Assembly: GCA_030141605.1 (NCBI GenBank)
Contig: JAQGDQ010000136.1
Location: forward strand, 372,001-436,000
Origin: Tubiluchus corallicola
Lineage: Eukaryota > Priapulida > Priapulimorpha > Priapulimorphida > Tubiluchidae
DNA length: 64,000 bases
Direction: 5' to 3'
Of the stretch, positions 3,801 through 55,507 are shown one piece after another; the first letter of the stretch is position 1; each line of letters starts with the position of its first letter. A program made the translations under genes and the position numbers. The notes beneath the pieces are model-generated. The model ran no database searches. It saw only the letters and a program-made list of their open reading frames with translations, and had not been told where the DNA came from.

Positions 3801-6800
3801 TTCAGCTGACTTAGCTGATTTTTTCTTTAAGCCAATTCAGCTGAAAAGTCAGTCAACCTCTGCCGAGCTAGCTGATTTACTGTGTGAGTCAGCTGATGTA
3901 GTAACAACTAGATTCAGCTTCAGCCTCTATGAACTAGGAAGAGCGCACAGGTTTTTCATAAGCATGAATTTTTATTACCTTCACCATCGAAGCTTTCGTT
4001 TAACACGTCTTGCACGGCATTTTCTGTTGCTTCTAATGTGTGCTCTCTCCATGTTTCTCCATTGTCGCTTCGCAGGATTGTTATCTCCCTCTCTTTGCCT
4101 CGCAGTGAAGCAAAATGTGGAACCTCTATAATAACTGGCCTGCATTTAGAATATGATGAACATTATTATGCTGGCTATAAGACAGATAGAGAGACATACA
4201 CGTTTATTATTTTCACTCATTCTTCATACGTTAACCAATGGATTGAATAATTAGGGTGATTCCCGGAACAAATTTTTACATAAGTGACAGAATTCTTCGT
4301 GTGTATGAAAAGTTCTTTTGTGAGAATCGTGGCTCATAGTACTCAAATTATTTCATTAGGGTAAAAGTTTAGCTTTAAAATGTCATGGTCTGCAAGAAAA
4401 AGTGAATATTATCTATCACTTTATGCAAGTTACTAAAACCACACACATCAGACAAAACCACATTACAAACATTTCAGACAATAATAGCTCTGCTGAAAAT
4501 ATGAAATGTTAATAACAAACAAAACTGGCAAAGCATTAGACTCACCCTAAAAATTTAGCTCCAGATGGTCCCATCTCTAAAATTCTACTTGCCAGAGCCT
4601 CTCCTTCCATTAACGGTGGAGGATGTGCAAGTTTGTCCCTCTTCACAAGTCGGCAAGTGATGCGCATGGGTGCCGGAGCCTTCCGGGGTGGGATAATGAT
4701 CCGTACCCCCGAATGTCGACAGCCCCTCATGGCTCCTCCGCGTGCATCAACCATGAAGCTGACAAGGAAGCTGCAAAGTAAAAAATAAATATGATGAATG
4801 TTAGGTAATTATGGGCAATGATTTGACAACACAGTTGAAGACATGTTTCCAAGTAAGAGGAATTGACAAACTTACCTTGGGCTTTATTTTTGGGCTTTAA
4901 TATTGACCTGCGTAAGTTTTATAACAAGCTATACAACAAATTTATCAATACAGCTGCAAAGACACATTACGACTGATACACAGACTGATGATATTAAGGT
5001 CCTGAGACCCTTAGACATTTGCTTCTATGTCTAAAATCCTTAGATATTAAACTTGACATTTGGTTTCAAGCATATACATATACTATTAAACATATACCTC
5101 AACTGAAATGCTTTCTGGCCGTAACTAAGTTCATAATCACTAGGAACTTGGCACGCAAAAGAAGCGCTCCTCTTCCCAAAAGTGGGTAGTTTCAGACATC
5201 TCAAGGTACCTCCCATGAATTTCAGAATACTGAATAGTATTTCAGTTTGTAAAATATGCACACGACATTACAATTATAATAAATTTTCTAAATTAAAAAT
5301 TATCTCAGTTTCGTTATCACAAAATAACACACTCCTTCAGAATGAACTAACAATTCACTCTGCACTGTAATAATGTGCATGTGAAGTGAGTGAAGTGACG
5401 ATTCGATTGGCAAAGCTAATGATATGTGTTTATGGTACTGGTTCATGGTTAAGAGAATATTGTAAATTTAGGGAGAGCACAGGTAAATGACTTGCACGGG
5501 TCACAGAAATTCGTAAATTTTGTAGAATTTGCCCAAATTTTTAGTAGGATCGGATCGTTGAAATCTGAGTTTGAATAAGAATCAAGAATTATCTTAAGGC
5601 TACTTGAATGAAGACAAGCACTAGATAGACCGCTTCTATTTCTATCTAACACATGTTAGTTCAGGAGTAAGAAAGTCCTAGTTACCGTTGGTATGCATAA
5701 CTGTATAAAGCGGTATGCAAGACCATTGTTTGCTAATACAGAACATTTAAAACAGAAACATAAAACCTTTTCATCAACACTTCAGTTGTACAATTTACAG
5801 GGTCCTGCAGAAATAGTTTTTTAGTTTAAATTTACGCAAAAATGCGTCAGATGGCAGCACATGTCAATGCTTATAGTTTTGTAAAGCGGCAGCGACAACA
5901 ATATAAAATAAACGAAATAAAATATGAAAATGCGTTTTTGCAAAAATATTGGTTTAATAACACGAATCCTGAAACTCATTTTTAAGAGCATTAATATTTT
6001 TGTAGCAAGTTCCAAATGAAAGTATTTGGGTTCCTGGTTCTTATTAATAAAAAATTGCATTCTGATTTATATTTTGTAGAATATACGAATGAATGTCAGA
6101 TGAAACGTTAGATCTTACATCTCGAAATCATGTAATATTAATGTAGATTTTACTCCATGCTTTTGCTACATTACACTGAAATTGCTCTTAAGCAAACTTG
6201 TTCAGCTCACCAGCCTCAATACTTTGAGGCAAATTTACTGAAGAAATTAAACCCGGAGAAACCAGTATGGCTCGTTTCAGTTAATATCGGTCTAAATTTG
6301 CTAACATTCACATCGGCAAACGTCACAAATGACGCGTTTCAAATTGTTTGCATACAATTAGGAAACTTGAAAATCACTTTTGTTGCCATGACGACCCAGT
6401 TGTGGCAAGCGCTTACCGTTTTACAACGCTTATACGAGTACTTGGAAATCGTGATGATTTCATTTTCATTTAAAACAAAAAGCACCATGAAATGGTAAAT
6501 CTTTGGCTACTGTCAAAATTAAGGGTGCCACTGTGCGTTAGTTGATAGCACTCCTCGCCCGATGGCACTACCCACACTATAAGTTTGATTTAGCTGGCCC
6601 TTACTAGTCTTACTAAGAGATGCAGTTCAAAATTTTCGTAGTAGTAACATCTATATCGGTCTTCAATGTCAAGGACAAACATGCAATGACCTCCCATGCT
6701 GCTAATACCATCTTTGATTGGCTGGACAGACGAAAGCAATATTACACACTGTGACTCGTTGGACAAGTCACTTGGAAAAACTGCAGTACAATTAAAACTA

Positions 6801-9800
6801 GTCAGAAGCGCTTAATAAAACCTCAAAAGCTGACTGCATAGACGGCAGACAAGCGTAGTTACTTTAATTACGTCAAATGCTGCATACTGAATGATAAATA
6901 TCGTAATAAAGGCTCATTATTTAGGTAATTAATGTCATGCATGGTTCAGCAATTAATTGAAAGTGCAATTTAGATGCCCACTTGTCACAAGCGGTCGTCA
7001 AATTGTCGTGAGAGGCTGACAGTGCAGGCAGGTGACACACGCCTAACACGAAAGAAATTGATTAATAAATTCTCATTAGGAAAATGAACTTTTATTTATA
7101 AACAAAAAATATAAGAGAACACTGTAGCTACAGTTTCACCTTTACGGAATTGGCATTATAATGGTTTAAGTACTGCAACAGAGTTATCTAAAGTAGAAGA
7201 AACGAATTATTATCGCTAATAAATATAATAGCCAGGCCTACAGTAACCGACATATGCATTTAGACTGTGACAAAATCTTTGCAAGCATGTGCTAATAAAT
7301 GACTTCACTAATTCTTTATAATGGTCCAAAATTAATGACGATTTTTGGAGATTTTACTCACAAACTAAGCCTTTACTTAAGGACAAACACAAGATTTATT
7401 TTTTAAGCTTGGACAATCGCTCAGAAGCAAATGATTCAAAATACCTACGTTTCCCTTTCGTCTCTCGATTCTTTCCTCGAATAGTGAACGTTGCACTTCA
7501 AGCCCAGAGGATAAAGTAGCGAATTACAGTCAAATAACCCACCATTCACCGTGGCCATGTTTATGACGTCACAACACTCAATGAGTATTTATGAAGAAGC
7601 CATGATGGTTTACAATGTAGCGTGTTTTTTTCGCCCGCAATACAGCCGATGGCGTTACCAATTTTGCAAACTGCAGCTGTAGTCAAGAAAATCACGTCCG
7701 TGATATCATAATTAGATCACACTTGATATGGTTTACAATTTCAGCTTATTTATGTCAGATTTACAAGTATCACAGCGAAACTTGACGGTCAAAAGTGTCT
7801 TTCAAGCTGACAGCAGCAATACAAAATGAAACCACATGGTAGATCCTTCTGGCTGACTATTTTATGATTGCAACACTGTTTCTGCAAAATAGTAATGCTA
7901 AACACACATCAAGGTTAGATTTATCAGTTTACAGCAAAACTAACCTATTGATGACAGAACAATTTCAACAATTGTACGCTTTCAGTTGACATAGACAAAT
8001 AGAGCGTACATATATAAACAAACTTCCCAAACTGCAAATTTTTGACTCTTTTACTATTAGTAGTTAGTAAGACTTCACTTTGGCTGGATAAACTACAAGA
8101 TTAAAAGAATACAATACATCAACCGACATTCGAACCTATGTCACTTTCTGCCGTGCTATTAAAGCAGCCATATGCGTGTACAAAGCGTCCCACAAAGCAC
8201 AAAGAATGTCAGAAAATCTTCACGTTTTAATTTGAATTTGACTAAAACATTCTGCGCAAAGAAAGCCAGAAAATGTTGATATTTTTATTTGCAAGTTTAT
8301 TTGAACTCGTTGAGCTTACAGAAAATCATCACCATATCAAGCGGAAGTCAACGATGCAGATATTAAAAGCAAAATTTTTTAGAAGCTGGTAGGAAGCCAC
8401 AAAACTCTGTAAACAGCGTAGCAAAGACTTGAGCTTAAGAATGTCTAAACAAACTCAGCAAACCAGATGCGTGCAACCGGCTGAAAAAATGGTGACTGTC
8501 AACACCCAGTTTTGAAATACATGCTCAACTAGAGAGGGCTTCACTAAAACATTATAACAACTCCTTTTTGGCTTTATTGTATGGATACACAATGAGGCAC
8601 TGGGCGGGTAGTATTATCAGGTAAAACAATAAACACCGGAAGGTATGTTTATGCAAATACATCGCTGCCATTTTCTGTTGACAAATGCTCATCTAACACC
8701 CTCCTTCAGCTCCTCTTCGAGAGACACAGAGATGAAACAGTGCATTAACGATCGGCCTAGGGATCATTCACAACATTTACGTAACTTGAGATTGTTGGTT
8801 TCTGTACTGGATTACTTGTACACAACAGTTAAAGCCACTTAAATGCCGAAATAAAGTTATTTGAAATTCAATAAATGGGAAAAACCCATAATGGATACCG
8901 CATTAGGGAATAGGGAAAAGGCTTCGAACTAGTGTTAATATTAAACACACCCACCTTGAATAAGTCAAATAATGTGCTATTAAAGATAGAACACTGCTTT
9001 TCTTGCGTAATTATGCATTGCTGCAAACAGGGATCTACCATTTAACAAGACAGGGCCTGTCCATTGTAAACGGTTGTGGCAAAACTAGAACTTGTTTCAT
9101 TAACAAGGATGCTTTTCTAAGATAAGGCACTGAACCGAGTAAGGCATTTCGTTCTCATCCGTTCTCGACTCTGTACACATCTTCCTTCAACAAGGTAAAA
9201 TTTACCAATTGGCAGTATGGCAGATCAAACCGTCCAGAACGAATATTAAAACCGGCGGTCACCTATACATTCCCGGCCTGGTATAGCATACCGGTAATTT
9301 AAAATTGACCGTTAAGCACACGTAGAACCATTCCGCTGTTCACTTTGTCCCACAAGGTTCAGCTGATTATAGTCGCACAGATTCGCACTCTTCCTGTTAT
9401 GTTATTTATTATATAAAACGACAACCGAAACTTTATCGAGTAATAAGGTTAGAAAGGAGACAGTTGTTGCTGCCACCCAGAAGTCTTCCTGGTTTCCAAC
9501 TGAACTCGATCACGAGGCTCATCAAAATAAGCAGAGTTTTAAGTTGCGATGAAAAGGACTTCCCGAAACAGAGCTGTCCCAGGAGAATCGTCTGCAGTGA
9601 AGTGTAAAAGTGATTCAAGATGTCGTTCTTTGCAAACGAGTTGCCGGAAAAGGGTGGATGCTAAAAAGAGCTGCTATTGATTTCACAGACACGCCAAAAA
9701 ATGCACTGCCCAAGAAAAAAAACGAAAATTGTAATCTGGGAAGAAGCAGGTTTCTAACATAAATCTCCTCACAGTCAGCTTCCACATTGCATCATATATA

Positions 9801-12800
9801 AATGGATGTTACTGAAAATGCTGTAATAACTACCAACATAGCTTTGTGGATGGAAAGCGGAGCGGTAGGGCATTTTTTATTAAACATTGTCTGGCAAGGA
9901 GACGGTCAAACATCTGCACGTACAATACCCACAACAGTAGTCGTAAATTAGGCTCTAGCTTCAAAAACCTGCATTGGAAAATAAAAGTGTGGGGTAAGCA
10001 GCTATCATGTTTTAAAAAATCTAAATCACATCACATGTAAATAAATGTTGGCTAAAACAAACAGTTCATCACACAAAAAGTTCTATTTAGAAAACCTTTA
10101 ATATGGCTGGTAAAAGATTTCTTAAGACTCTTTGTAGAAAGAATAAACTATAAAAGTCGCTTGAGAGATAACCATGACTTCAGTAATATGATGATTTTGC
10201 TATTATGATGGAAACAGACAATAAAAACAATGACGGGCTTATTGATGGCGACAGCAGCTGACAAGAGCAAATAAATCGCCTTGATGATATGGGAACCGAT
10301 GAATAGAGAATGAGCGTATTGATGAGAAATTTATATGAAGAAGCCAGTATTTAATGGCGGTTGTAAAGCAGAGCTCAAACAGACTGGAGCAACGATGTTA
10401 GAAGAGGCACTGTTTGCGAACATTCACCAAGTTTCAAAAGCAGCATGTGAACAATACCAACGTGTACGCCGAAAGACGAGTGAGAATATAGTTTAATGTA
10501 CAGTTTATTGTTATATCGTAATAGTAATAGCAAAGCAAAATGCAGAGTATATTGATCAGCAATTTTTTTAAAGGTCCAGCGGTTATCATTATTTTTGTGT
10601 AAGGAGGTACAGATGCTAAATATGTTTAATCAAGCAGCTCTGTTGTTATGTTATTATACTCTTGGGATAAGCAGCAACTATACTGCTAACAGGTAATGTT
10701 GCTTAAGGCTCGGCTTTTTTAATACTAGACTTCTCAAACGCTTTTGACACATCTGGTAAATTTAAATCATGAATTCAGTCATGAAGATTTAAAACATGAA
10801 AATAATAAAATTTTGTAAGTAGAAGAAACACCCCGTACTCAAGTCATGCAGTCATTTACACAACATTTTTAAGCTTATTAGTAGAATCTGGTCCTTTTCT
10901 ACTATGTGCGTGCATAAATGTATAATGCTACCTTTATACACCCAATGTGTTTTCGTAACAAACCAAAATTTTATCCCCACTTAGTTACTTCAAATGTGTA
11001 TCTCTAGTGAAGATAGTGTATCTAACTATATGTGACTGCCGGAAATATCACTGGAAACAGTCTACGCAGTTGCTTCTCGGGTCAACGGTATTGTGGCAAA
11101 CCATGCAAAATCCTGGGTTAGCCAAATGTCACTCATGAATGTGTATCTAGTGAAGGGTCATAATAAGTGGCACGCGCTGGAATTCAGCACTACCATATGT
11201 TACAACGTGATAGAGATGTACACACTGATGGCTGCAACAGTTGGCTGACAGATGCTACTTGTTAATTAGAGGACGAGGAAGCTTTGGCAGCATCAATACG
11301 GACAACGAGAAAGTGATGGCAGAAAGAACATACTACAGCAAAAAATATAATTTCACTGGAGCAAAAGATTTTGGTTTCCCCTTTTTGTACCGGATGAATT
11401 TTAAGCTCAACCAGCCCCAGCCCCAGATAACAAACATCTACCGATTTCTTCATTCTCAAAAAAGAACTGACGCTGAGAGAAAATACTGTGTGCAAGCCAG
11501 ATTTGAACACTGGTGAGTTTTAAGCTCAACCAGCCCCAGAATTAACTCCCCGGACTTGTCTAAAAAACAGCTGGACTGAGTAAAAATAGACAAACCCGGC
11601 GACTTTAATATGCCGAAAAACCTTAAAGATGTAAAAAGTTCAAGAAAATTTGTTGAAGATGAACAAACTATTTAGTTTTGAAGAAGCCAGCAGCTGCTTG
11701 TGTAAAACGGGCAGTTCTAGGATTAGGACGCTACTTTATGAAGAGGAGTTCCAGGTCTAGCAGAGTGAAAAGCTTTATTCTTTATCGGTGAAGGACTTTA
11801 ATCAGACGAAAACATTATCAAACGAGACAGTATTAAAATAATTTTCAATCCCTTGCTGAAGACTAAATTTAGGGGTGCTCCCAGTGTATATTCTCGGGGC
11901 ACTGTTTAAAGAGCAGGGATGCTGAGATATTTCAAATTCCATTCCGACTAGAACGGTTTAAAGCAGTGAAGTACTTATAGCAAATCGTAAAAGTTATTTA
12001 CAATTTAAATCACGTAGGGAAGATTGGGCGAAATAGAGGAGATATATGTACATTAATATTCATAACCAGTCAGGAATCATGATTTACGCATGTGAAGTTT
12101 GAAAACGAGTACACTGTAACGACAAAATTATTCCAATTTTTCATTGGCAAGGGCAAGCAAGCCCCAAAGATTTATGAGTTGTTTTTCAAAGTCTAGAAGC
12201 TTCAACACGAAAACTTATATTGGCAAAAGCTGCTGCATCTCGCACATTTAATTAATTATTTACTTGGGGTCTAAATACATACACACAATTTAGAATCAAA
12301 TGTAGTAGGTGAAACATGAAGTTTAGTTAACACCAGGAAAGGAGATAAAACTAGTGTAAGGGTACCGCGAATCACTGGAGAAAATGGACAGAGGATTCAC
12401 AAAAAGATAAGTCTGATGAAAGCCTTTTAGAATCTCATGTAATATGGATGAAGCAAAAGTAATTTTCTTTATGGGTTGATAATAGAAACTCTTTAAATTT
12501 ACTACTGCAATAAGAGACTTCAAAAAGCAAAACGATAGCACACAGCGATCTAGAACGAAAGAATGAACAAACGGCTGAACGAAAGTAGGAAAGAATGATG
12601 TAATCATTGCTGTATTACATAACTCTTTTGTTTATAACATCCAGACTATGTACCGCACGTGACTTCGGAAAAAATCGCGAGCTTCATAACAAATGTGTAA
12701 AAAAATCTGAAAAACAATTAGAAAAATCACTAGCAAAATATATGAGCAGCAACGCCTCGCGTAGTCATTGAGTTGGGTTGGTTCTAAACAGTGCAAAATT

Positions 12801-15800
12801 CCAGAACACTTAACGCAACATAGTTTGTTATGAACTATACGTTACAACGCAAGTCAAATTACACTTTTGTTGATCATTTAACCAAGAGTTGAATTTTACA
12901 AATAACGTAAAGAAGAGGGGACTGAAAATAGAACCCAGCCGTACACCGACAGTAAACATGTTGAAGACGCTAGGACCCATGATATCCCAATTTGTCGTTT
13001 TTTACCCAAAAACAAATTTATCACGCCAGTTTTTGGCAGACACATTTGCTTTAAAAGAAGTAACGAGGCTAAACACCAGAAGTATGGCTAAAGAAAATGA
13101 GATATTACAACACTAGTAAAGAACTGTACAAATTTTCGACCATCAAACGATATACTTAACACACAGTCACTAATGTAACTATGACAAGACAGCGGTCCAG
13201 TGCATTATTGACACAAAAACATGGTCAGTCTTCCACCGAAACTCGAACTTGAGCTAAACTTTCACTGAAGAGTATAAACATCCAGCTTGTACATATAATG
13301 TAAACATTCGCGGCGGAGGAATTCAAACTCACGAGAGAATTTTCACGATTCCGGAAGCCAACTAATCACCCAACTACCAAATGATCGCGTCTTCCCCCAA
13401 CAAAGCTGACGATCATAATGAGAGACTGGTGGCTGTACAAAGATAACGGCACTGCCTCAAACAATTATTTATTTGCTTTGGACGCGGTGAAATCGCGCGT
13501 TAACGTGCCTCTGACTCTAACAGACTGACACACAACACATCACATGAGCTAGTGCACAAAGCTAGGCAGATTGCAAGCGCCTGGCTTCAATAATTAATAA
13601 CTGGGCTGCTCCCTTGGCGCACACACGTTCGCTTACAGCTACCGGTTAGTAGTAAACGGCACAGATGTGGTTAATTCATGCACATTCTTCCCCTACACAG
13701 ACAGTCATACGGGTTGGGTGGTGAGTTCCACAATTTGGTAACCATATTGAGAAAAATGGCCTAGCGTTTCCTAAGTTGATACAGTGAAAGCTAGAATAAA
13801 AATAACTTCTGAAGGGATTTGGAGCATTTCATTAGCGCTTTTAACAGGAATGTTGCTAATATTTTATGATAATTATAACAGGAGATTATGTTAAGCTATC
13901 ACTTATCTCGCCAAAAATAATAGTGGCGCCACTCAATACGTGATTATAATATGGTTAATTGGCTAGTTAGCTAAATAATTTAATTCATTAAAAACTAATC
14001 ACTAAACAAAACTAACTTAACTAAAACAGTTAACCCTTTACTTAGTGCAAAATTGCAACCTTTTTGTGGAATGTAAAAGTGACAGCAGTACTTGTTCAGC
14101 ATAACAGTATATTTTAGAAGCAAAGAGTAAGTGATAAAAAATAGCTTAAACACGTTGCAAACATGAATTTCAAGCAGGGTCAATCGTATGCAGTGAAAAG
14201 TAATGCACCAGCTTAAGTCAACTCCTCTACGACTTTGTAAAGTATATAATTCACAGAAGCAATACAACACTTACTGGTAAACACGAAATCGTATTACTAG
14301 CTATAGGAACACCTGCTGGTATACGTGAACCTCTCTGTACACCTCATCTAGTAGTTCCCAGGCTTTATTAGAGTTTTAACAATCATATAAATGTCAAAAT
14401 GGTCGTAAAAATGATGGAAAGTCGACGTTTTCACAGGTTATTCATGTACTGTAATTATACGGTTGCTGTTTACAATCCACACTTGTTGTATTCTCTTGTA
14501 GTACTACTAAAATACCATCCCCAGATTTTCCTTGTGACCCCATGGGCAGGTTAGATCACATTACCATAGTGGATGTTCATTAAATCAATTAATTAATTTC
14601 GGAACTCGTCAGTCAAACTGAAACAGATTTAACCTCAATTTACATGTTACATTAGTTGCAAACTGTGCCCTAATCGAGTCAACATGGCGCCGTTAAATCA
14701 ACCATCCGCCAAGTATTAATGATCCCATTGGTGAAATTACTCTGCTTACAGCACGCATAGGGGCAATTCGCTCAAATTAGGATACCCACAACACAAATAG
14801 CAATTTAGCACAACAGTTAACTTTAAATTGAGAATTATAGAAGTATTCGTAAGAGAATAAATACAATACTATATAGTAGTTGCAGACAAGCAATCATATG
14901 AGTTAGGCTTAGGCAAGCATGTATAACCATAAAACAAATGTAAACGATATTACGATGATTACGATACAGTCAGGTTGCGCTTCTGGGAACATGGCAGGCA
15001 TTTGTCAAGAGCCATAAAACGCATCGACCGCAAACTGAATAAAATTACAACTTGCAAATCGGAAGTGCAATACTGTCAATGGTTTCCGGCAAGAGACAGC
15101 TAGGTGAAAAGGTGAGACTAAATTGCAGACAAAAAGACGGACACAGTTACGTAATAACGCGCCGATAACCCGGTGTAATGGTTTTATTGCTTTCACAATC
15201 AGAATGAAGTTAATTAACTAACAGTGGAGTGCAGATTTTCACAATACTATTATACTGTGGCAGGGACACTTATTGAGTATATATTCACCGATTCAGGTGA
15301 CAAAGACCCAGCTCGGGATAGCTAGTGCAAGTTTTGGAAATCAATTTAAATAAAATCTCAACAAATTATGTTTAAGCCAGAATTATACGTGCTTAGAAAT
15401 AATAATTTCATAAAGATGAAGCTTAGTTCTGGAATACACGATTCTCAAAATGGCAATGTCTATAATAATTGTAGGGCTGTAGGCAATACGAACACTCAAT
15501 GAAAACTGTCCCCAACCGAGGTACTTGTCAAACCTGCAACGGAAATATTTACATCAATGCCCTTTAAGCTAATGAGAGTACTTAATGCAGAGGCAGGTGT
15601 GAGTGAAAAGGCTTTCAGGAATATCGATTTAAATTGGAGCCATCGCACAAAGGCAAAATCGAGAACTGAATCTCTCACAGAGTAGTACCAAACAGTAGTG
15701 AATACAAAATTATGGTAAAGTATGACGAGCTGATTACACTAAATTCCGTAATAAGATGTTATAAAGACTGACGACCAAATTTCAGCACATTATTTATTAT

Positions 15801-18800: not shown

Positions 18801-21800
18801 ATTCAAGTGTAAAATGCTTGGTTGCTTTTTTCGCCTACCTATGTTGATTTGTTTATCTGCAAGCTACAAAGAAGCACTGAGTCACGTCTGGGTGAAATAA
18901 GCGGTACTGTTGATAATTAAAAAGTTTTGATTAATTTTAGGCACTATTTACACGTGTTTTAAGTACTGACCAAAGCACCTAAATATACACTAAAAATAAA
19001 CTAAACAAGACAAGTGCTCCTATGCATCCTAGGAAAATTTTGTCAGAATACCAAGAAAAATACAGAAAGTTTTCGTATAAGAATAGTGTCATTTTGGACC
19101 TTGCGAGAGGAGTCACCTATTAAACCAATTAGTACCAATCGTTGAGGAATTTTCAACCAACACTCACTCACATTACACTCCTCGCACAAAGTCCACTGTT
19201 CTCGACATGCTTAATGGCAGATGAGACATTGCTTCAACACAATGCTACCCAGTTATAACGACCACAGTTGACATCTTCCCAGCAGATGGCTGGGCACTTG
19301 GAGAAAGATGATTGATGAGAATGAGTATACCCATCTCCATAGCAACCGCGAAGAAAGCTAGGGTGCTCTTATTATGCTTGTACTGAAACAACAAGGCATA
19401 AGGGCATTCTCGATTTGAAAACTTGCTATTTTTTTCCTGAAATTGCAGTCAGTTTCATACAAATTTAAATGGACAAACTTCCTATAAACTGTCTAGAATT
19501 AAATCAAATCACTGACGAAAACACTGCGAGCACAGCGTGCAACAACAACCCTACTTTTCCAACTGTTCTGTTGACTCAAATGAGCTGCTCTTTACAACGC
19601 AGAAGGATGTGCCAGCGATAAACCTAGTGCGAACTATTCCTGCAAGATGGCAGCAGCTGCCAATAATGCTGAGGTGATATTCATAGTAGTATCTATATCG
19701 CTGTTATAGCACTTATACAATGCACACTTACTGAAATAAAAGTGAAAGTTAGCACAGTTCTACACACTAAAAGCTTATACAGTAGCTTTATTCAAGTTCC
19801 ACTCTACACACACAATATCAAAACCAAAATGCAGAGCTCCCTGATGCTTAACAACGCGACTGTATATAATGCCAACATGATGAAGCATTTTCTATGGCGC
19901 TTTTCATTGCGATTAAAAATTAATATTTAATATGCCTGGCGCCCAATTGTTCAATAGAAAACTTTACTTTCACGCAGACTTTTGAGGGACTGCTTAGTAC
20001 TTATTAATAAAGCGTTCAAGTAACGTTGTTCAAATAACGTTCAACCAATCGTTCGTTTTAATTAGCTCGTCACAAAATAGATTACTCTATAGCTACTCTG
20101 CACAAAAAACAAAGAGAAAAGCTTAAATGGCACCATATTTAAACCAAAAATTGGAAAAACAGTGTACTGTGAGACAGTGTGCGTTGCTTTTTAAACACTA
20201 TGATTTTTCTACTGATGTGCAAGCTATTCAAAACTACAACGGATATTGCTATAATCAGAAGTATACTCAAGACAATACACATCATTTACACCACGCCAGT
20301 TTGCAGTCATCACGACAGTACTAGGGTTTCGGCGATACACTATCTATGTCTGTTTAAATCAAGGGTAAAACTGTGCTACAATATAAAAAAACTATATTAC
20401 TAGTGTATTTACAAGTCATTAAGAAGTTTTGAAAAGTTTCGAAAGCATAAACAGAACAGAACCTACCATCCTCGTTTCATTTCTGGAAACATTCTTCGAA
20501 TGTACATCCTGTCGATGAACATGTTGCCGGTGCGATATCGGTTGTCCCATGATGAACGATTCTTGCCTGGCTTGGCCAACAATGTCATAAAATCCGGTTG
20601 CTTTATAACCATAATTGTCATGCTTTACATGTAGTTTACTAGGAATTACTGGACAGTGATTACTATGAAACGTCTGACCAGGTGTTCTGCATCAAATACA
20701 AGCAGCAGCTTATTTTACACAATTTGTAAAAACACGAAGTCCAAAAACACAGCCTTGTAGAACACCAGAAGTAAGATAGCAATAGATAGAAAGAACTAAA
20801 TTTTCTTATATATAGCCATGTTCTCGTTTGCTGAGCAATTTCACAGATTCCTTTTTATGTGGCACTATCGCCGAACAAAGAATGCTATCAAATCATAATC
20901 ATATTTGTCCGTAACGATAACCATACAAAATACTGTTTACGATGCACAATATAGATAATTGAATAAGCACTTAGTCTGTAAGAAGCATCCACATCAAACC
21001 ATTTCTGCCGTTTTCTAGACAATGTTGTAGTAGAATATTTTTGGTAAGCTGCTTCATAAGCAGCAGAACTATGATAATTCAAGTAGCTTTAGTAACAGTG
21101 TGGTTTCAACGGTATCTTTAGGCTAATGAAAGCAAGAACAAAAAATAAGTAATTAGGCATTCCTGAATGAAAATAAAAAAGACCACTCGATAAAATAAGA
21201 ATAAGGGATTCTGTAGCATTATAATGAACAAAATCACTACTTCTAACTCACACAAAATATTCACAGTAAGATTTATAACGTTTCAAAATATACACTAGTA
21301 GTACTAGTGTGTATATACTAGTATAGGGTGACAAAGAACTGGTTAATAATTTTTTCATTGCAAACTTTGATTCTGTTTTTCTTTGTGTAACACACAGCTG
21401 CTTCCGAATTCCAACAACAGTGAAACTGAGTAACCTATACGCACTACTGCCTCTAAATTCAAACTGTAGCGAAATTATGCAAAATTGCACAACCAGCCAA
21501 TCTTCAGACGACAATCGCTGAAAGTGTTAGCCGAAAATCTATAGAAAATCCCCCAGCGACCATTTCAGGCGCCTGACGGACACTAAACTGAAGCCTGCCA
21601 CTAAGTTCAGCAGCTATCATAGTAATTCCTTATCACTGGGTTCTATTGTTCTAGGCTTTAACAGCAGGCCGCAGTCTCGTCACACAGTAATTAACTTCTA
21701 AAGCTTCTCAGTATCAGCTGCTTATACGTCTCAATTACGCTTGAATCCTTTCATATTCGAGCGCTATCCATATCCAGCCTTAAGCTACAGTTTTACACTA

Positions 21801-27800: not shown

Positions 27801-30800
27801 TCAACTCACTGAAACCTTTTTCACACTAACATCTTAGAACCCCATGGCACTCTTCTTTTGTTACGTGTCTACCCCATTCTCTATGACATGTACTGGCTTG
27901 ACAATTAACTTCCTTTGAAACTGGCACAGCTACATCTAAGTTATGGAATACTACAACATATTTAGTGAAGCATTATTTGCTACAAAATAACCAACGTGGA
28001 ACTTTCAAAGCTAGCTGCACAGTGTTGTGTCTCCATCTACTGTGTTGTGTCTCCATCTACTGCTGAAATTGGAAATCATTATAAACACAGTTTTCGCGTA
28101 CACACTATGGCATCACAAGACTACAGCAGTTAAATATTTAATTTACAAGACTTTTTTCTAGCAATGGAACTTACCTTGAGTAGTACTTTGGCACAGAATA
28201 TGGAGGCCAATGATAAAATTTTTTACTAGCTGAAAACACGATCAAACCAATGATGAAAATAAACAATTTTTGGAAACATGTCTTCAAGAAATAGTATTCA
28301 AAAACAAATAAGCCATGACAGTAAACATCAAATCTTTGTCTTCGCTGAAGTGCAAATACAATATTAATAATACATGTACTCAGAAAACTAGTGACATATA
28401 ATAATTTTAAAATCACATCACAGTAATTAAAATATATTATTAATATTGCTAGAGCTGCTCAAAAAAAGCTTAACATCAACATTCAGCCACTTGTAGGTCG
28501 GTGGTATTTTGTCTAGCAGTTAGTAAAAAAAGCTTAATGAAACCAGCTACAATTTTGGCCAAAAGATGGCAGCAGCATGAGCTCAGAAAAGTAAGTCTGG
28601 CAATCTGTTGTAATTAAAAAGTGTAGAAGTATTAAATAGTGCAAAAAAAGATAGATGTAAATGTAAGAAGAGTGTTTTATTGTTTATTTGTATAATTTAT
28701 TATCACATCTGTCTAGGAAGTGTCATATTGTTTATGAAATATGTGAATTAATGTGTACAATTTATTGAATTGGAAATAGAATGTATGACTTTTCCTTGTA
28801 TTGTAAAAATAACTCAGAAGCATGCTCATGCACTTAATCCTAGAATACTCAAACTAAATATATACAATGGCCGAGCAAAACCACACAAGTGTTCACAAGC
28901 AATGTGCAGAGCATGAGAGAATAATAAGGTGTGCACTCTCTGTTTAACTTGTTGGTTAAATATTATTGTTTAAATTATTACTTGCCATGCCTAAGCTAAT
29001 AATATCACAGTATAGAAAACAGCACAGCAATGTGTCCAGCTAGCTATTCTTCATACTGTAGAACTATAAAAATTAGACTCTCCAATAGATAGCAGCACAG
29101 TTATTCTACACTGTCGTCTACTAGGAGATGTGCTAATTATTAATAGAAATTTCTGCTATATTATTTTTCACTTTCGCACCTGTAAGCTGGTGTCTCATAA
29201 CTTTGCACTCCATGGTCCTGTTCTAATTCTCTGATCAAACCAAGGCTAACGAAATCAACAAAATAAACGAAATTACAGAAACAAATTAGCGGCCTAAATT
29301 ATCTGCACTCTGTAGCTATGGTGAAACAAACTAATTTTAGTGAAAAAAATGTCAAATTAAATACTAATCAAAATAAAAGTGAAATTATTATTTAAAAATG
29401 TTTAAAATATAATAACAGAGGATAGGCCTACACCATTAAAATGTTAACAAAAAGCATACCATTAATAACAACTAAACTAATTTGAAAAAAAAACTGAATA
29501 ACAAAAGACCAATAAGTTTTGTTCAAAGCTGCTGAATATAACTGTTTCAGTATCATCACTGAGTTACAAAGTTTTTCAACACGTTAGACAAATTACGTTG
29601 CACACCTGAGTACATAAAGGTGTCTTGAATTACTTTTTGAGTTACATGAGTGTCTTGAGTTACGTGAGTAAACCGATAACATAATCGAATGGTGATTTAT
29701 GAAACACTACTGTAGTACTATTTAAAAGCATTTTATAATCAAACATTTAGACACAACATAAAATAGTGCAACTAAAAATCTTTACATATAACACTTGTAA
29801 TAGACTAGCATGGCAAATTTAATCCCAGTAAGACAACTAAGTCTTAAAATTCTATCCTAAAACTATGACAACACGAGATTACAAAAATTTTTGTTTTTTT
29901 TAATTTGTGCAAGACGTTAAAAGACATTCATACCATACCATATTTCTACCATAAACAAAAAGCTGATGTCTATCAATAAATTTATTGCAAATGCTGACCA
30001 GTAAGAACGTATTTAAAAGCAATGAAAATTTGCATAAAAATCCCACTTGCGTACTTTTTGAGTCTCTCAGGTGTTCCATGTGTCAACAAGAAACTCATTT
30101 TGTGTTTGATTTTATGTACTGTTATTTGTGAATGTGATTATGATTATTGTATATATACACAGTAGCTGCAGCAGTGCCGTATTATCCTATGGCAGGGCCC
30201 TTAGGCTTCGAACTTCTTTGGGCCCCGCGACACCTCCTCCCCCATGCGCGCTGTCCTTTCATACAATTTATTTACTGCTTTCCTGTCGAAGACGGTGGCC
30301 TATTGGCAGTTTCACAAGAGCAACCATCGCTGGGGCTCAGTACATTCGACTGTTTACATGGTTACATCTTACATCATTTTTGAACGGCTGAAAAATTAAG
30401 ATTGGCCTCACCTGAATGTGAGTCAAAATTTCACACAAACTGAACCCCATAATTTCTTTTTTTGTATAGTTCAACGCGCTCTTAGCGTTCCTGGTATCAA
30501 AGTGGATTCCTATAAATTAATTTCAGTGACCGGCAGTGTGCGTTTGTGCTATCAAAAGTTTTAACATTAAAAGCTAAAAGAAAAAAGGGTGAATGGACCG
30601 CTGCTTTTGGTGGGCCCCTAGGCTTCAGCCTAGTTAGCCTTATGGATAATGAGGCACTTGGTAGCAATAGTAACTAGTTAAGGAACAGTACTGCTTCATA
30701 ATTATGTTTTGTTGTGTATGTGTTACATTATAGTGCATTGTGATGCAGTGCAGTGCAAAAAAACAATGTAAAATAAATAGTCTGCAACAAAAAGAGAGAT

Positions 30801-33800
30801 GAGGAACAGAAACACAAGGCACAAAGCACAATGATTGGACAAAAAGACAGCAAGTACAAAACACACATTAAGCACACAAATTAGCACAAGTGTGCAATTC
30901 CCGCCTTTGGATACCACATCACAAATTCACAATTGTGCAATTCCCATGTTTGCAAACAACTATGTAACAATCTAGGACAGAGCATTCTACCAGCATCTCA
31001 CTTAGCTTTTAACATAAGGAATCTTACACAAGGTCACACCAGACAACCTGACAATCAAGTATACATTGATTGATTGAATGATTATAGTCTTGGAAAATCT
31101 GAATTTCAGGCTAGGAAACTATTTTTTTCAACAGTCAAAGAGCACAGGAACATTTATTTTATACAGTTTCTCTTCACATATATCATGGAATTATCAAAAT
31201 TATATGTTTTGAAGATGATGATTAGCAGTAGACTTGATGGCTACAAAAATTGAATCACATTTTTCATAAATATTCTCTTTGAAGTAACACATACTCCTGA
31301 CTTGAATGATGTTGCATTAAATTTTTTTAAGCAGTCAAGAATGCTACATGAATTGCAGCCACCTATCAATTAAACAACAAATTATAGTTACAGTATCAAA
31401 TATCTCAATGTTAACAACTGTCAAATAATCTGGTGCTCAAACCTCAACAATAAAATCCCTGAGATTAGTAAAGTTATTACCAACTTACGTATTAAACCGC
31501 AGTCTGTAATAAGAAAAATCCAACAATTAGTACCAAAAAGTTAGTGAACTAGTTTTATTCATCCAGCAGCACTTAAGAGAATAAGAGAACAGTAGCTGAT
31601 GGAAGAAATAAGATGATTTATGCGTTTTTTAAACTTATAAAATTAAAGATGCAAAATACCGGAATAAAAAAATTATTTGTCCCAAGCATGTAGAAAATTA
31701 AAAAATCTTAAAGAAAATGATGTTTTTCAGATGAGATTAATATTACAAAAAAGAATCAGTTTTTTGTAGTCTATGAAAAAATTACCCATCGAGTGAATGT
31801 TAATATGTTAATACAAAATTTTTGAACATGTTATAATATTTAAGTACTTAAAATATTCTCAAAAGTGCTGCCTAGACAATGCATGCATGTGAGATCACAC
31901 TAAAGATGTTAATATAATTGAGAAAGGCCTACAACCTTAAAAATCAAACTAAATCCTTAACCACAGCTGAGGTACCAGATCAAAAGAAGAAAATAAAAAA
32001 ACAGTCGAGTACATTAAAGAACCAAGTACTAGTTTTGCATCATATTTAAAATTTTAGTGAGTTAGTTACGATTAATAGGATAAACACAACTGCAAATAAA
32101 TTAAGAAAAATTATATAGAATTCGGGAACTATCTTCAGGAATTATCCAAATTTCTATGACGGAATGATCATTAAAGTTGACACAGGTGAACAAATCAGGA
32201 GCAAATATTGACGAACCAAATTGTTAATTAATAAAAAAATATCAAAATTTATTTTTAAATTTAATAACCAAGAATTGGTAACGTTTTTATACACGTCTAC
32301 ATGGTGACTTATGAAGCATTCAGCCTACAAATTTTTGTGGATGTCTGTGATTAAGACGAAGGTTTTTGAAAAATCCACGACCTCTCAGGAAGCCAAAAAC
32401 ATGGAAAATCCATAGTAATACCTAAAATAGGAATTCACTTTCACTGCAAAACAAACGTCGATGTTTTTCGACTTTGATGAAAAATTCGACTTATCCAATT
32501 TGCCACTATCAATCAAAATTAAAGAACACGTACAAGCCAAGGCAGTATTTAACAATGGAACTTTACGTTAGTTTTCTAACATGGAGGCTGTGTTCAAAAC
32601 ACAATGTTTAACAACAGTGTAGGGCAGTTTTTTATTTCTTTTTTCACTTATTTTTTATGTTAGGAGCTTTTAGGATTAGACTCTCAATTTCAGTAGTTCT
32701 TTCTTTCATTTACTGCAGTTATACACCATGCAGCATTTGAAAATGAAAAAAAACAGCAAAATCCAATGCCACCTACTGTACTGTAATCACATCAAAAACA
32801 GTATTAATTTTATAAAAGCCTTTAACTGCTAAAAGTTGCGAGTTCGAAATATATCAAGGCATATACACGGTGGTATCACGATAATGAAGTTTGTTAAACA
32901 CTAGCATGACTTCTCTCTATACTTCTTTAACTCTTCAAACGAAATGTAGAAAAAACTAGGAAACCTTGTATGCCTACTACCAGTTTTGCATGCTGAAAAA
33001 AAGCCGGAAGGCAATAAAAATATTATGATTCCTCACAAAATATTAATTAAATGTGTGATAACTGATGTAATGTATGAGAAGGCCATATAAATGTTATCAT
33101 TGCATAAAGTCATACAAAAAGTAATTAATCAATACCATTTAATGCATGTCTGCAAAACTTCAATCTCTAAGTCATATGTATTTTGCAGGTTTTTTAACAT
33201 GAATCTTTTATTATGTGATTTTGTGTTTTTTATGAGTGCGCCACGTATTTTAAATTATGTGAGGATAAAATTATTGCTATAAATGACTTTTCGTAAAATT
33301 TCCCATGAAGAGTAGTACATGCAGTGTCTATTTTTAATCTTGATGGCTGTGTGGTGGGACCGAAATCTGCTTCACTATTGTAAGATAGGTAATTCTCTAT
33401 ATGACGAGGCATTAAGCAGGTAAACTAAGCTATGCACAATTTGAATTCATTTTCTTTATTCAGAACCAATTTTGTGTTTGCAATTTTTGTGACTTTAATC
33501 CTTTTACGTTAGATATAACAGTCTTTTCAAAAGGTCTTGATTACAAGCCAAACTGTGAGTATATTTTTGGACACACCTACCTCCAGTTAAAATGCTTCTT
33601 TCCAAATCACTTAGCCTAACAAGTTTGCCCATTTTCCATTAGACAAAGAAAAATTTTAGTAGATTTTTAGGAAAATCTAAGAAAATGAGGCGGAAAGTAC
33701 AGTGACTGGTTAATTTCAAATGGGATAACACCATATTGATTAAACACATTCGAATGCGAGTGCATCTTTTCGAAGGTAAATAGCATGAAACTGCCAGCAG

Positions 33801-36800
33801 TTACCATGACTATCACCTATCTCGACACCAATCAAGCTTGGCATTGCTTAATTTTAATCACTAACCACACTGTGCCCTTTAAAGCTGTTTTCCATCACTC
33901 CACCTAAATTTGTACAACTTACCACATATTTACGTCTAATTAAGCTTTTTTCGGTAAACTTGTTAAATTTAGTTACTTAATCTATACAGTTCAGTAATTC
34001 TATATAAACATGTGCTGCCTAATTCACGTGTCTATGTACATAGCTGTAATTTGTGTCATAATACTGATTTCGTTTTCTCATTAATTTAATTAACTTACTA
34101 TTACCTTCCATTAAGGGTGTTATTATCTCAGCCCAGGATCAAATGCATAACCACGTCAGTAAGACCGCGTACTCGGGTGTGTCAACGGGAAAGCGAGATG
34201 AATGATCTCTAATTCACTCGTACATTGGCTGAATCAGGTGTGTGAACCATGCTTTACGTGATTATAAATGTGTGGCTGGAAACACCTTACATACCTTACA
34301 TTGTTATACAAGTGTTTTGCTTGTAATAACTTGAAAACTATATGTGGCTTATTTTATTTTGGTGTGCTACTTGTCATTAAGGAAAAGACAGGAATAATAC
34401 AGACAATTTATTAAGTGTTAATATAAATAAAAGAAAAATTGATGAAGACAGAGCCATTGAATACTGAACAGCATAAATAGGAAGGAAAGTTATAACAAGT
34501 TTCGCCTCATTTTCTTGGGTACCACCAGCCAAAGAAATGAAACACACATTCTTGTTAAAAAGATCATCACTGTACCACATAAGTTCATCTTACCTTATTC
34601 CTAGTAGGTCAATGTGACGTCACATGGTTTGGCACGTAGCCAAAAAACTCCTACTTCAAAACCACTACAAGTAAGTAAGTATCAATTCATGAAAAGCACA
34701 ATACCCGAATGTCTAACTTACCTAAACACACGGTCTGTCTCACGTGACCTCAGTTTCCGGATCCGCTGTAACTCTTCGCTTGTGATAAAATACCTTTGAT
34801 ACAATGTGAGTTTTCCAGGTCTCACAACGCGTATACTATCGTTTGCCACCACCATCAGGACCGGTTTTCATAGAATAATAATAATACACACGCTGAGGAA
34901 GTTGATACTTGGGCGCAATACGAAGCTAGTATAAGCACCTCGGGCTAGCGGGTACCTTGGCTTTAATTTGCACTCAAAACGGATTACTTGATTTTTGAAT
35001 AATTGCGTCAAATTCTGAAGTGCTGTAACTGTTTTCTCTTAAAGATTTTTCAAGATCATTTCCATTTTCACAAGGTCCAGATCTTCAGTTTTTTAGTCTA
35101 CTACTTTCACTGCCTGAGTTTTAGAGGTTTTAACACCAATTTTTCAGATACAACTTTTCGATTTTTAATACGCCAAAAAATAAAAAAGTTTAAGAGGATA
35201 CCACTAGAAGCGCGTTTTAATTATTACAAGTACGAAAATTATTGAAATTTTACTGATTTTTGCACGAAAACAATATAAGTTAATTCTCAATCGGAATAGA
35301 CACACCTTAGCTCTGAACACACACACACACAGAATTTCACAGAAAAAAACTAATGTACCCAAAACTATCTGTAAAACAAAATCGCGTATTCTTCCAGCTT
35401 TCTCTCAGCTTTAACATACGCTACCAGTAACCACTCCAACAGGAAAGTCAAGAAAACGAAAGAGGCGTCTTCATTACGTATTCTGGTCACTCACTGTTTA
35501 CTTAGGATTTATGGTTTAAAGCTGTGCTATACTCTTACCAAGAACACTAAAGAAACGCGGATATTTTTACTAGCAGACAATTATGGCTACTTTAAAACGG
35601 CACAGCCTGCTCACTGCGAGTTTTAAAACGTAGATTTTATCAGCGTTTAATTGCGCTTATCATAGAAGCTGAGACGATCTTTTTCGAAGGTAAAAACAGT
35701 CTTCACTCAAAACAGTAAAGAGCAACTCTCAAGATAGCCGAAATATTCAATAGCAGTTAATATATATAAACCATATCAAGTTATTATCAAATAGCGAGAG
35801 CTCTAGCCCACTTCTGCACTGTTCTGATATAACCAGCTTTTCTACACCGCATTGATGTGTGATACCCAAGTTTTTCCACTGTCTAAACTCAATTAGATCA
35901 TTATCTCTTTCACCCTCTACCCATGAACGCTCGTCGACTGCTATAATATCCCTCAATTTCCGGATTTTGACACCGTTAAACTTGTCTGGCAAATCACATA
36001 ATAAAACTAACTAAATAAGCGGTGACAACTGTTACTGCTTATCTCCCCGCTAGAAGTGCAATGCGTAAAAACATTGTAACACGACTCTCGCTAGGCCTCA
36101 CTACTCATTCAAGCATTCAGATAAATTTCCCTCAAAGCAACCGCATTCCGACTTTAAATCACCTAAAGCCTTTTGGATCACATATCGTTTTCATTGTCAA
36201 ACCGAAAGCTATGAGCACGTTAAGAAAAACAAAACTTAATTCAATTATAAGCAGGAAGTGGTTCATAGTTAAGCAGTGTTTTATAACGTCAGTAATTGGT
36301 ATATGCAACTAAGCTACTTTAAAATACTATAACATACCAATAATGTCCTGCTAAATTTTTATGTGGAGTGTCGAGATCCGAATAAACAGAAAAAATATTG
36401 ATATTGATATAATGATAGCGCCTTTTTTTCTAACATTTAGCTATGACTCACAATAAGACCCATCAATTCTTTTTAATTTTGAATATGATATTATTGACAT
36501 TAGAAAACTTAGATAAGTTAGTAAGTTTGAACAATCATGCTTAGTTCAAAGAAAGCCTCAAACAATATAACTATGTGGGCAACGCATAGGAAAATGCGCG
36601 TGGACTATATTTTGTGAAAAACGCCAAATAAAAGAGCAGTCCTCGGACTGGTTTTTAAATGAGTGATAACCTGTAAGCAGATATGCAAATATGCTACTAA
36701 CAATTACAGCAAAAATATGAAAGAACTACTCTGTAAAAGGTGGCAGAGCTTTTTATCCCTTAAAAAGTGAGAACCATGCATTAAACCAACAAAAATAATC

Positions 36801-39800
36801 ACATACCTTTTAGAACGATGACCATATTTTCTTCTGCTGGGTTTGTATCCTTCTATACCATTCCAGTAGAAGGTAAAACAAAGAAAGGGACAGGACCACA
36901 TCACGCTTCCAATAAATGCTGCCATTACTGATGGCCGCAATGCACACATCCGCATTAAACACACTAATGATGCCGTTGATTACTGCTGACAATATTTTGA
37001 GCAATCGGCGGACATTTTAACTGAGATTAATGAGAGAAATATCGAGAAAAGCATTTTACCTGAACGTATTGATCAGCAAGCAAGAGAACTGGAAAATGGT
37101 AACAATCAGCAAACAACGTATGCCGGATTTCTTCTACATTATTTCGAAGCGAATATGGTGTAAATTTAATACTCCATTTAACGAAAGCATGACAGAAAGT
37201 CAGAATATTTTCCCATTTTTGTTGCTGCACCTCATGATTCCATTGATGCTTTTCAGCCTCACAGCTATCGATGATAGGGGACGTATAGAAACTGAGATAG
37301 AGGAACTGTGGATTGTTAAGAAAAGTCAGACATGTTACAACCTTAGAGATAAACTTACTAATGCAATTAAAAATGTGAAGATGCTTTTGGGACAAATCTG
37401 GCTAGAAAAACCTCTGTTAAGCTTTTTATTAAATAAACAGATACATAATCAGGGCAGGCTTGATTACATGCCATATTAAAGTATTTTGATTAAATAAGAT
37501 ATGTTCTTGACTAACCTTGCCATAGTCAGTCTTAGGTCACACTGATTACACTCAAGCCATTCCTTTAGTAACATCTATATATAGATGTTAATCTATTTTC
37601 TGCGTTCTGTATGATTGTAATACATAAATAATAAAAGTGTGTGTATGTATGACTGTACGTCGTACAAGTACAATGATCCACTGTTAATCATCAAGGTTTT
37701 CATCAAAATCTTGAGATGGCTAAATAATATAAACATTGATTCCCCTTACCTTTTAACGAATTACCTCTTTAGCACAGGGTAACCTGGCGAACATTATCAT
37801 TAATAACCAGAGATTGACCTTTGCTGTTACAGCAAGCTTTACTAATAGTAATAGCTAGATAAAACCACCTGGTTGCAAAAAAATCAATATAATGTTCCTG
37901 AAGCCAAGACATAATCACTCAATAAAACAGTTGCCATGTAAGCAGCCTTGTAATATCATTTTAGGAAGAGATGGGCACAGAAAGAGAACTACAAGCAGTA
38001 TAAAATAGAAATTTTCACCTTACCTTCTCATTTTTAGCTCCTAAATTTGACTGCCTCAAAAGAATTATTGGATAGAAACAAAAGAGATTTTATCATACGG
38101 CTATAAGTTATCCAAAGTAAGGCCCAAAACAATGTGAAGATCAGTGTTTTGCATATGTATTTTGTACGCTACAGCACAAATAAGATTATGTTTTTCGTAA
38201 AAATGTGGAAAACTGATTAATCAAAAATTGAACTCAGAGACGTTCATCAGGAAAAATGGAAAAGAACACCATTGTCAACTTTTGCTCCAAATTAGGTTCA
38301 CCTGCCGGTAAACAGTACACATGTTATTCAGTAGGAAAATTCATGCTCGTGCACAACCGTATTATAAAAACGCTTAACCAGGCTATGTTACATAGAAATT
38401 TAGGAGACCCTCATAAATGCAACAGTTCCTTCTAGATAATATGCAAATAATCATTGACCTGTTATACGGCTTCCAATAAAAGCACTTTATGCAACAATGA
38501 CCAAATATATAAAACAACAAACACGTGACATGATTCTAACACGAAAGACACAGAAAAATTGAGCAAAAAATGAAAAAATAATCAAAGCATATGTAGTGAG
38601 TGTAATAAATGCATATAGTATCAAGTGAATGCAAGAAAGTTGTAAAGTTTGATAATGCAAAGCAGTAAAAACACTGCGATTTCACAAAAGAAAAGTTGTA
38701 AAAAAAGGTAAATCTGATAAGCAGACCTGAAATATAAGTTGGTAAAAAAAGTAACGGAAAAAGCTAAAAAAGAAATATTTGGTACAGAGTATTAATAATC
38801 AGTGAAAAAACACATTTTTGCTAACAAAATGAATGTAAGGCTCTCCTATTAAGCAAGAAAAATGCCTAAAAAGTGCCAACTGTTCACTTTGCTGAAAGCA
38901 CGCTGAAAGACAGACACTCACCCATGCTGCTGTGGAGCTCTGTTGACGATGATATTGTCTGCTTCGTACTTGCCACGGAATTCCGGGTATTCCTTTTCTT
39001 TGGGCGAGCCTTCAACGGGAACGACGTTTATGACATTGCGATATTTGTCAATGTTAAATGTGTGTTCCGGCTCCTTGTATTCCTGGCCGTCCAGCTGCAA
39101 ACACAAGGAAAGCATGACAATCTCTTCTGCAGAAATTACGTGTTTTGTATTGTTAGCAACAGTAAAAATTCAAGAGCTTCTTGCTGCTTTATTGCTCAGC
39201 ATCATATAACACGAGCTGGCAAAGCAAAAAGTAAGGAAATGGACAGGAGAATAAACTGAAACATTTGTGAATGAACTTACGTTTGTTTTCATTCACATAA
39301 TATAAACAGAGACAAATCACAGGTACGCAATGTTAAACACAGGATTTGCATTTCAGGATATTATGCATTGCTGTTGCTACACATCTTCCAAACAACGAAT
39401 TTTGACATTAGCAATTACGATTCGCTACTGAGTATTTAATTTTGACACCAAGATATGGCTAATGATTTAAGTTAGATTAATAGGGACTAACAGAGACACC
39501 TGCTGTCAATGGTGAAAACCTGTTTAAAAAATGCAGATTCACAACTGGCGCACATCAAAACACAGGAGAATGTTGAGAATACCTCTCTGTTAATGATGTT
39601 TTGGTATTCTACTTCCTTCTTCGATGTCGGCACGATCAATTCCTCCTGCACTGCCTCTTTATGCACCTTCTCTTCAATGACCATTGGTGGGGCTGTCTCC
39701 ACGTACTGCTGAGATATGCGCTGATCTTTTGGAATGGACTAGAAAGTAGCAAAAAATGAGGTTTTTTATTGTTATCAGTAAGTTCCTCGTTATTGGTAAT

Positions 39801-40581
39801 TACTGGTAAAGAGCCATTTAATGTACAGCAGTATTCAGCATTCTATATCTAACTGGTTTTATTTGAATATTTATAATATAAAAGAGCACATTCCGTTACC
39901 CAACGACCGTCCTTTCATATTTACATACTTCCAAACACCACTAGAGGTATGACTAACATTGGCAGGCATATATTTGCATGATGAAAAAACTTTTCCAGAC
40001 CTAGGTGCTACAATTGAAGTTCTATATATTTAATAGAAGGACAAACACTAAACTTCACATTTTGGTAAACATAAGTTCTTTTTTGAATATAACTGGCTTT
40101 AAATAATAGCTTATGTAGTTTTTCCACTATGCACTTAAAGTTGCTTCTATGCAGAATTTACTGCGACCAATAATAATTGCAATGGATAACAAAGTACTTC
40201 AAACGTTTGTATAATTTTATATCTTTTCCCAACTTAGACATCTTTTATCCTACCTTAAAAGTCACATTTGTACTTTCACCATAAACCATCGTGCCTAATT
40301 CTGTCACATGTATTAACCTTTACCTCTAAAATTTCGTCCTTATGTGGCATCACTGAATCATCACCGAGAGCGGTCATTTCATCCGTTGTTAGATAACGTA
40401 TCGACTGGTCCCCAGTGTCAATATCTCCTAGCAGAAGTAAACGCAACTTGAACAATGTCACCGAATGAAAAGGTAATTTGTTTTTTTATCAAATCTCAAA
40501 AATTAATTAAGGTGAAAATAAATTAGTCTAGGTCTTAAAGTCGCTACTTTATTCACAAGAGTAGACTACACAATGAAAAAG

Positions 40582-40651
<70 letters not shown>

Positions 40652-40664
40652 CTTCTCTCTCTCT

Positions 40665-40740
<76 letters not shown>

Positions 40741-40748
40741 TCCCCCTC

Positions 40749-40816
<68 letters not shown>

Positions 40817-55450: not shown

Positions 55451-55507
<57 letters not shown>
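55451..55507. repeat. TAA trinucleotide microsatellite
   Basis: About 19 perfect copies of TAA upstream of ankyrin repeat-1 exon, in the presumed first intron. Confidence 0.95.

Follow-up and report, generated by a model that had tools for sequence, protein, structure and literature searches.

An ankyrin gene of the priapulid Tubiluchus corallicola carries one intron of 34,151 bp between its repeat/linker half and its spectrin-binding half, and the question raised by this locus is whether that intron is merely long or contains a second start of the gene. The gene lies on the minus strand, with most of its length inside the 64,000-nucleotide (nt) stretch analysed here (contig JAQGDQ010000136.1, positions 372,001 to 436,000), which is called the window and to whose numbering all coordinates refer; every exon and candidate below is on the minus strand. 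The intron is real and unusual, and several signs, each of them modest, indicate that it is more than filler. An excess of strong sense splice donors, a bias of start-codon frames towards phase 2 and a CpG profile like that of the 5' region together favour an internal start region feeding E17, the first ZU5 exon. In the favoured reading, to which we give a rough probability of 0.45, the giant intron has expanded to form a second 5' territory, in which an internal promoter would feed one or more alternative first exons spliced onto E17. The intron, the phase of its junction, the two excesses and the CpG pattern are all read directly from the DNA.

The giant intron and its junction

The gene model was obtained by mapping splice-flanked exons and assembling them, and consists of 22 exons (E2-E23) that read open over 4,168 coding bases with 0 stops. 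It contains ANK repeats, the linker and much of the ZU5-ZU5-UPA module. The repeats number 24, counted by hand against the mouse Ank3 exon table rather than by a domain search, and the canonical metazoan ankyrin layout of 24 ANK repeats followed by ZU5-ZU5-UPA is present as far as the window reaches, the death domain lying beyond it. The repeat/linker half up to E15 (39095..55005) runs from E2 (55005-54904) to E15 (39738-39583) with introns of 333-2827 bp, and is followed by E16 (38922..39094), the last linker exon, which ends in ...APQQHG and leaves phase 2. The giant intron (4771..38921) opens with GTGAGT after ...CAT GG and closes with CTTTGCAG before C TTC CTT GTC. E17 (4546..4770), 225 bp in length and beginning C|TTC CTT (FLVSF), matches PDB chains of Ankyrin-1, -2 and -3 with E values of 3.2e-35 to 1.9e-29. 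The rest of the ZU5-ZU5-UPA half within the window comprises E18-E23 (691..4139).

An earlier note on this DNA had placed the intron between the two halves and had its downstream exon begin in phase 2, both of which are borne out by the E16/E17 junction. Its length of about 34 kb likewise stands, and at z = 5.5 on a log scale it is an outlier against the 20 other complete introns (112-2,827 bp, median 654.5). The accompanying claim that all other introns fall below about 2.5 kb is too strict, given the one of 2,827 bp and the intron 5' of E2 (55005), which extends over at least 9 kb provided the first exon lies beyond the window, as seems to be the case. No convincing candidate for a first coding exon upstream of E2, which would need a phase-0 donor, was found within 55006-64000, and the gene probably starts beyond the window.

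The corresponding boundary of mouse Ank3 lies between exon 29, with TCTGG as its last bases, and exon 31, which opens with GTTTC and is 225 bp long (PMC4449188); as with E17, this is a phase-2 junction ahead of (G)FLVSF, and the two ZU5 exons are equal in length. The exons that follow measure 155, 212, 208, 97, 229 and 126 bp in mouse and 161, 212, 205, 97, 229 and 154 bp here. Because the phase-2 junction and the 225-bp ZU5 exon are shared with mouse Ank3, the position of the intron just before the ZU5 exon is, on this comparison, taken to be ancient. Mouse exon 30, a 33-bp exon newly described in PMC4449188, sits between exons 29 and 31 and thus at a junction of the E16/E17 type; it is, however, alternatively included inside full-length transcripts and is flanked by introns of 2,381 and 2,453 bp. 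Symmetric 2-2 cassette exons that could serve the full-length protein number 0 in the giant intron (acceptor at least 6.5, donor at least 8).

Splice sites, reading frames and CpG content of the intron

The donor matrix was built from the gene's own 22 sites, with a cut-off of 6.68 corresponding to the third lowest real donor; the splice matrices (22 sites) and the codon model (22 exons of one gene) are both rough. Within the giant intron, 12 sense and 3 antisense donors score at least 10, against 3.7 ± 1.7 in shuffled sequences (n = 60) and 3.25 expected in third-order Markov sequences, where 12 was reached in 0/200. The excess disappears at a threshold of 7, where sense donors number 37, antisense donors 34 and those of shuffles 35.4. 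Control stretches are without strand asymmetry in donors, albeit on small numbers: 2 versus 1 in the 5' 9 kb and 2 versus 2 in the other introns. Eight of the 12 strong sense donors, at 38.0-33.6 kb, lie within the intron's initial 5.4 kb (p = 1e-4, the limit being set post hoc).

The most serious competing explanation is that the intron is merely long, its strong sense donors being decoys or U1 sites, its frames by-products of these donors, and its CpG a mark of DNA that escapes gene-body methylation, either as regulatory sequence or through distance from exons. This is possible, if on the doubtful side. U1 sites protect long introns from premature polyadenylation, and AATAAA in the first 5.4 kb is indeed rarer in sense than in antisense (0.55 versus 2.03 per kb), with base skew as a possible cause. 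The donor excess nevertheless depends on the exonic AG, AGGTRAG occurring 8 times in sense and once in antisense while bare GTAAGT occurs 10 and 9 times, which argues against this explanation, although AG pairs with U1 too. Acceptors of at least 9 are also more frequent in sense (22 versus 7 antisense; 14.4 ± 3.2 in shuffles), and acceptor-donor pairs at thresholds of 6/9 number 11 in sense and 0 in antisense, which lies above every one of 60 shuffles (4.85 ± 2.29, maximum 10) and is not what a merely long intron would lead one to expect. Recursive-splicing AG|GT sites are absent from both strands at 6/6 (shuffle mean 0.25), and at the weak setting of 5/5 there are 2 in sense and 0 in antisense (shuffle mean 0.65). 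A top-scoring donor at 4876 (CCCAAG|gtaagt, 12.2) would leave an intron of only 105 bp before E17 and has no open ATG frame; it may mark a non-coding leader exon or be a decoy.

Sense ATG frames of at least 30 amino acids (aa) that end at a donor of at least 6.68 are distributed over phases 0/1/2 as 2/1/7 in the giant intron, and the antisense frames as 0/0/2. Local dinucleotide shuffles yield about 1.3 frames per phase and third-order Markov sequences 1.2 phase-2 frames, and 7 phase-2 frames were reached in 0/200 of either. Conditional on the frame total, the phase-2 share of 7/10 has p = 0.02; such a preference is not expected of by-products in a merely long intron. As a set, the seven frames thus combine an intronic start codon with a donor phase that matches E17, none of them being individually proven. 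The earlier note had cautioned that short ATG-to-donor matches arise by chance; as a set, the frames exceed the roughly 1.3 expected.

The observed/expected ratio (o/e) of CpG reaches 0.72 in the giant intron and 0.75 in the region 5' of E2, compared with 0.47 for repeat-half introns and 0.49 for ZU5-half introns. In 500-bp windows the giant intron (68 windows) differs from the repeat-half introns (22; p = 1.4e-4) and is similar to the 5' region (17; p = 0.44), and all 20/20 other introns lie below it (range 0 to 0.69). Inside the giant intron two high-CpG blocks, with limits drawn by eye, occupy 34.4-37.4 kb (0.88) and 5-25 kb (0.80), and a low-CpG, gene-body-like block (0.45) occupies 25.4-33 kb; TpG+CpA mirrors these blocks. 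Invertebrate methylation is found mostly in gene bodies (PMC6409797, PMC6172769), and because of this the high-CpG blocks are read as DNA probably long kept unmethylated, like the 5' end of a gene. In a spider, the methylation levels of exons and introns are roughly equal (PMC6409797). Were the CpG simply a consequence of length, the 2.8-kb intron might be expected to share it, but that intron remains CpG-poor at 0.35. The stretch 33500..38100, its limits set post hoc, is proposed as the internal 5' territory, as it holds 8/12 of the sense donors of at least 10 together with the 0.88 block.

Candidate exons and the remaining alternatives

Codon scores were calibrated on the 22 real exons (leave-one-out, 0.05 to 0.43) and on a null of 462 open intronic stretches (mean -0.27, 95th percentile 0.05); a synonymous-only score had been dropped because it did not separate real exons from intron. 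Four of the phase-2 frames end at the donors 34722, 20467, 5098 and 36807 named by the earlier note, and all four exist as described, with 44, 51, 39 and 49 codons. The candidate first exon at 20467..20621 (51 aa, donor 9.3, possible acceptor at 20686 scoring 7.9) has a codon score of 0.10 (97th percentile). That at 34722..34855 (44 aa, donor TTTAG|gtaagt 10.5) scores -0.05 (86th percentile) and stands at the 92nd percentile of the intron for CpG, while those at 36807..36955 (49 aa, donor 10.5) and 5098..5216 (39 aa, donor 7.5) score -0.32 (37th percentile) and -0.23 (54th percentile), the latter at the 18th percentile for CpG. The remaining phase-2 frames end at donors 7449 (-0.09, 83rd percentile), 36163 (-0.30, 39th) and 29934 (-0.42, 23rd). 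Codon usage therefore backs 20467 and, weakly, 34722 and 7449. The first exons of mouse Ank3 have coding parts of 16 to 114 bp (PMC4449188), and coding parts that short are invisible to the codon test. The 220-bp acceptor-donor stretch 20467-20686 has coding-like scores in two frames, and the one that stays open from the acceptor onwards ends in phase 0, which does not suit E17.

The best-spliced candidate has two exons. Its putative start exon, 33581..33632 (ATG at 33632, phase 1 out, donor 12.1), would join a 55-bp exon at 28175..28229 (phase 1 in, phase 2 out, acceptor 9.3, donor 12.2), itself within the low-CpG block, and the chain 33632-33581 + 28229-28175 + E17 reads open. The summed splice score of this phase-2 chain was reached by 1/300 shuffles and 1% of 200 Markov sequences; before 33632 there is only a weak acceptor (4.9). 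A two-exon combination with a phase-2 end was also mentioned in the earlier note, without coordinates; such a set exists, though it cannot be said to be the same.

Several observations weigh against an internal start region. Enrichment of acceptor-donor pairs is weak at thresholds of 7/9 (6 versus 3.05 ± 1.98, antisense 0), and the codon scores of most frames are ordinary, only 20467 among the seven exceeding the 95th percentile; both points would equally suit a merely long intron. A phase-0 frame that overlaps 20467 scores higher still (0.16, 98th percentile). The donor excess inflates the frame count, leaving the conditional p of only 0.02, and the phase-2 excess at 30 aa varies with the donor cut-off: the share of shuffles reaching the count is at most 0.5% at cut-offs of 6 to 7, and likewise at 9 and 10, but 7% at 5 and 3% at 8. 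Two-exon chains leaving phases 0/1/2 number 3/2/1, with 0.81 in phase 2 in shuffles, so that by number they show no phase-2 bias, and the codon score of the two-exon set, at the 41st percentile of the open intronic stretches, is that of non-coding sequence. The initial 1.5-2 kb of the giant intron is CpG-poor (0.53-0.59). TATA-Inr pairs number 0 in sense and 2 in antisense; with Inr-DPE at 3 and 0, core promoter motifs are uninformative overall.

The 55-bp exon might instead be an alternative linker exon, the splicing of E13 to 28229-28175 and on to E17 replacing E14-E16 and giving an ankyrin with a short linker and its repeats kept. E13 ends in phase 1 and the combination E13 + 28229-28175 + E17 is open, although a phase match of this kind arises by chance in one case out of three. 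There are precedents, in that linker exons of mouse Ank3 are variably skipped and the 33-bp exon 30 lies just before exon 31 (PMC4449188), and the targeting of ankyrin-B is controlled by a linker exon (PMC3663501). The codon score of 28229-28175 is nonetheless low (15th percentile), and such an exon would explain neither the phase-2 ATG excess nor the CpG pattern. We consider this explanation unlikely.

A nested same-strand gene, to which the coding-like frames at 34722 and, in a different reading frame, 20686-20467 would belong, is highly improbable: 34855-34722 and 20686-20467 do join in frame, over 118 residues, but they leave phase 0, unfit for E17, the joined peptide has no Pfam match and a best PDB E value of 0.11, and the intron contains 0 tRNA or Rfam matches. 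A nested gene or transposon filling the intron was rejected on a scan of all six frames, with stops read as X, which returned 0 Pfam families at E 0.1. With an E limit of 10, the comparison of candidate peptides with Pfam gave 7 matches, 0 of them above a curated cut-off, and two candidate peptides compared with PDB gave best E values of 0.11 and 0.44.

A possible internal start compared with known systems

Under the favoured reading of an internal start region, the intron at the ancient site before the ZU5 exon would have expanded into a second 5' territory, with an internal promoter region most likely at ~34-37 kb and perhaps further ones in 5-25 kb. The alternative first exon or exons would splice in phase 2 onto E17, and their products would be ankyrins without repeats or linker that begin at the spectrin-binding ZU5-ZU5-UPA module and could enter the spectrin skeleton independently of the membrane partners that the repeats bind. 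Promoter activity, the choice of exons and the resulting proteins are what we infer from the signals described above. It is plausible, if unproven, that the gene also makes such short ankyrins lacking the membrane-binding half, and the odds that at least one alternative exon joins E17 appear about even. The earlier note had gone further and proposed a family of repeat-less ankyrins with swappable N-termini. The donor excess, phase-2 bias and CpG pattern do fit an internal start, but with mostly ordinary codon scores and a two-exon set that scores as non-coding, an array of at least four coding first exons does not emerge, and the full array remains a minority bet. A stronger version is improbable, according to which the locus would effectively be two genes with a common 3' half, one encoding the full-length ankyrin and the other a separately promoted, linker-less spectrin-binding set with several interchangeable N-termini, its promoter territory legible as the CpG-rich blocks (34-37 kb, 5-25 kb) in a CpG-depleted gene body.

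The closest precedent is exon 25 of mouse Ank3, the internal first exon of AnkG107-type isoforms, which lack the membrane-binding domain (PMC4449188). Like the exons proposed here, it belongs to an ankyrin gene and serves as an internal start for repeat-less ankyrins that have the spectrin-binding domain; its coding part measures 16 bp. The vertebrate short ankyrin-G forms cited in the earlier note are thus apt as repeat-less isoforms from an internal start, but mouse exon 25 does not occupy the corresponding intron: it is flanked by exons 24 and 26 and lies upstream of linker exons 26-29, whereas the junction matching that of the giant intron precedes mouse exon 31. From the exon order, transcripts beginning at exon 25 should keep linker exons 26-29. 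The candidates here lie downstream of linker exons E14-E16, right before the ZU5 exon, and the whole linker would be dropped. Mouse exon 25 accordingly already provides a case of internally started, repeat-less ankyrins, and a start after the linker exons would, if real, be a new variation.

Other systems share single features with the one proposed. The first exons 1a-1e of mouse Ank3 form a row of alternative first exons over a long stretch (~409 kb) of an ankyrin gene, but they lie before repeat 1 and their transcripts include the repeats (PMC4449188). Dystrophin/utrophin (Dp260, Dp140, Dp116, Dp71) offers internal promoters in a membrane-skeleton gene, giving N-terminally truncated isoforms, each with a first exon of its own; it is, however, another gene, and its protein-coding first exons are highly conserved (PMC1790709). 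Some transcripts of Drosophila Ank2 start downstream of the first intron, the passage not stating that they are repeat-less (PMC10186683). No invertebrate repeat-less ankyrin was found in a partial literature survey covering titles and abstract openings, with few subscription journals. If the favoured reading is true, repeat-less spectrin-binding ankyrins, documented in mouse, would occur in another kind of ankyrin gene, with the linker also absent and the start separately regulated. Searching unannotated animal genomes for CpG-rich, donor-rich giant introns in CpG-depleted gene bodies may then offer a cheap screen for internal promoters.

Related sequences sought in prokaryotic and viral contig collections gave 271 + 9 pattern matches with 0 confirmed, a result that says little given the scope of these collections. 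Among direct-repeat families of at least 30 nt, the window has, besides the ankyrin repeats themselves, a single weak 33-nt pair and two short tandem pairs. A TC/GA microsatellite of 245 bp occupies 40584-40828 in the E13-E14 intron. The E7-E8 intron contains, at 47982-48323, an inverted repeat of 36 nt (89% complementary, arms 270 nt apart), which may, as a guess, be the remnant of a small DNA transposon. Upstream of E2, a 71-bp unit is duplicated in tandem at 56041-56184 with ~96% identity.

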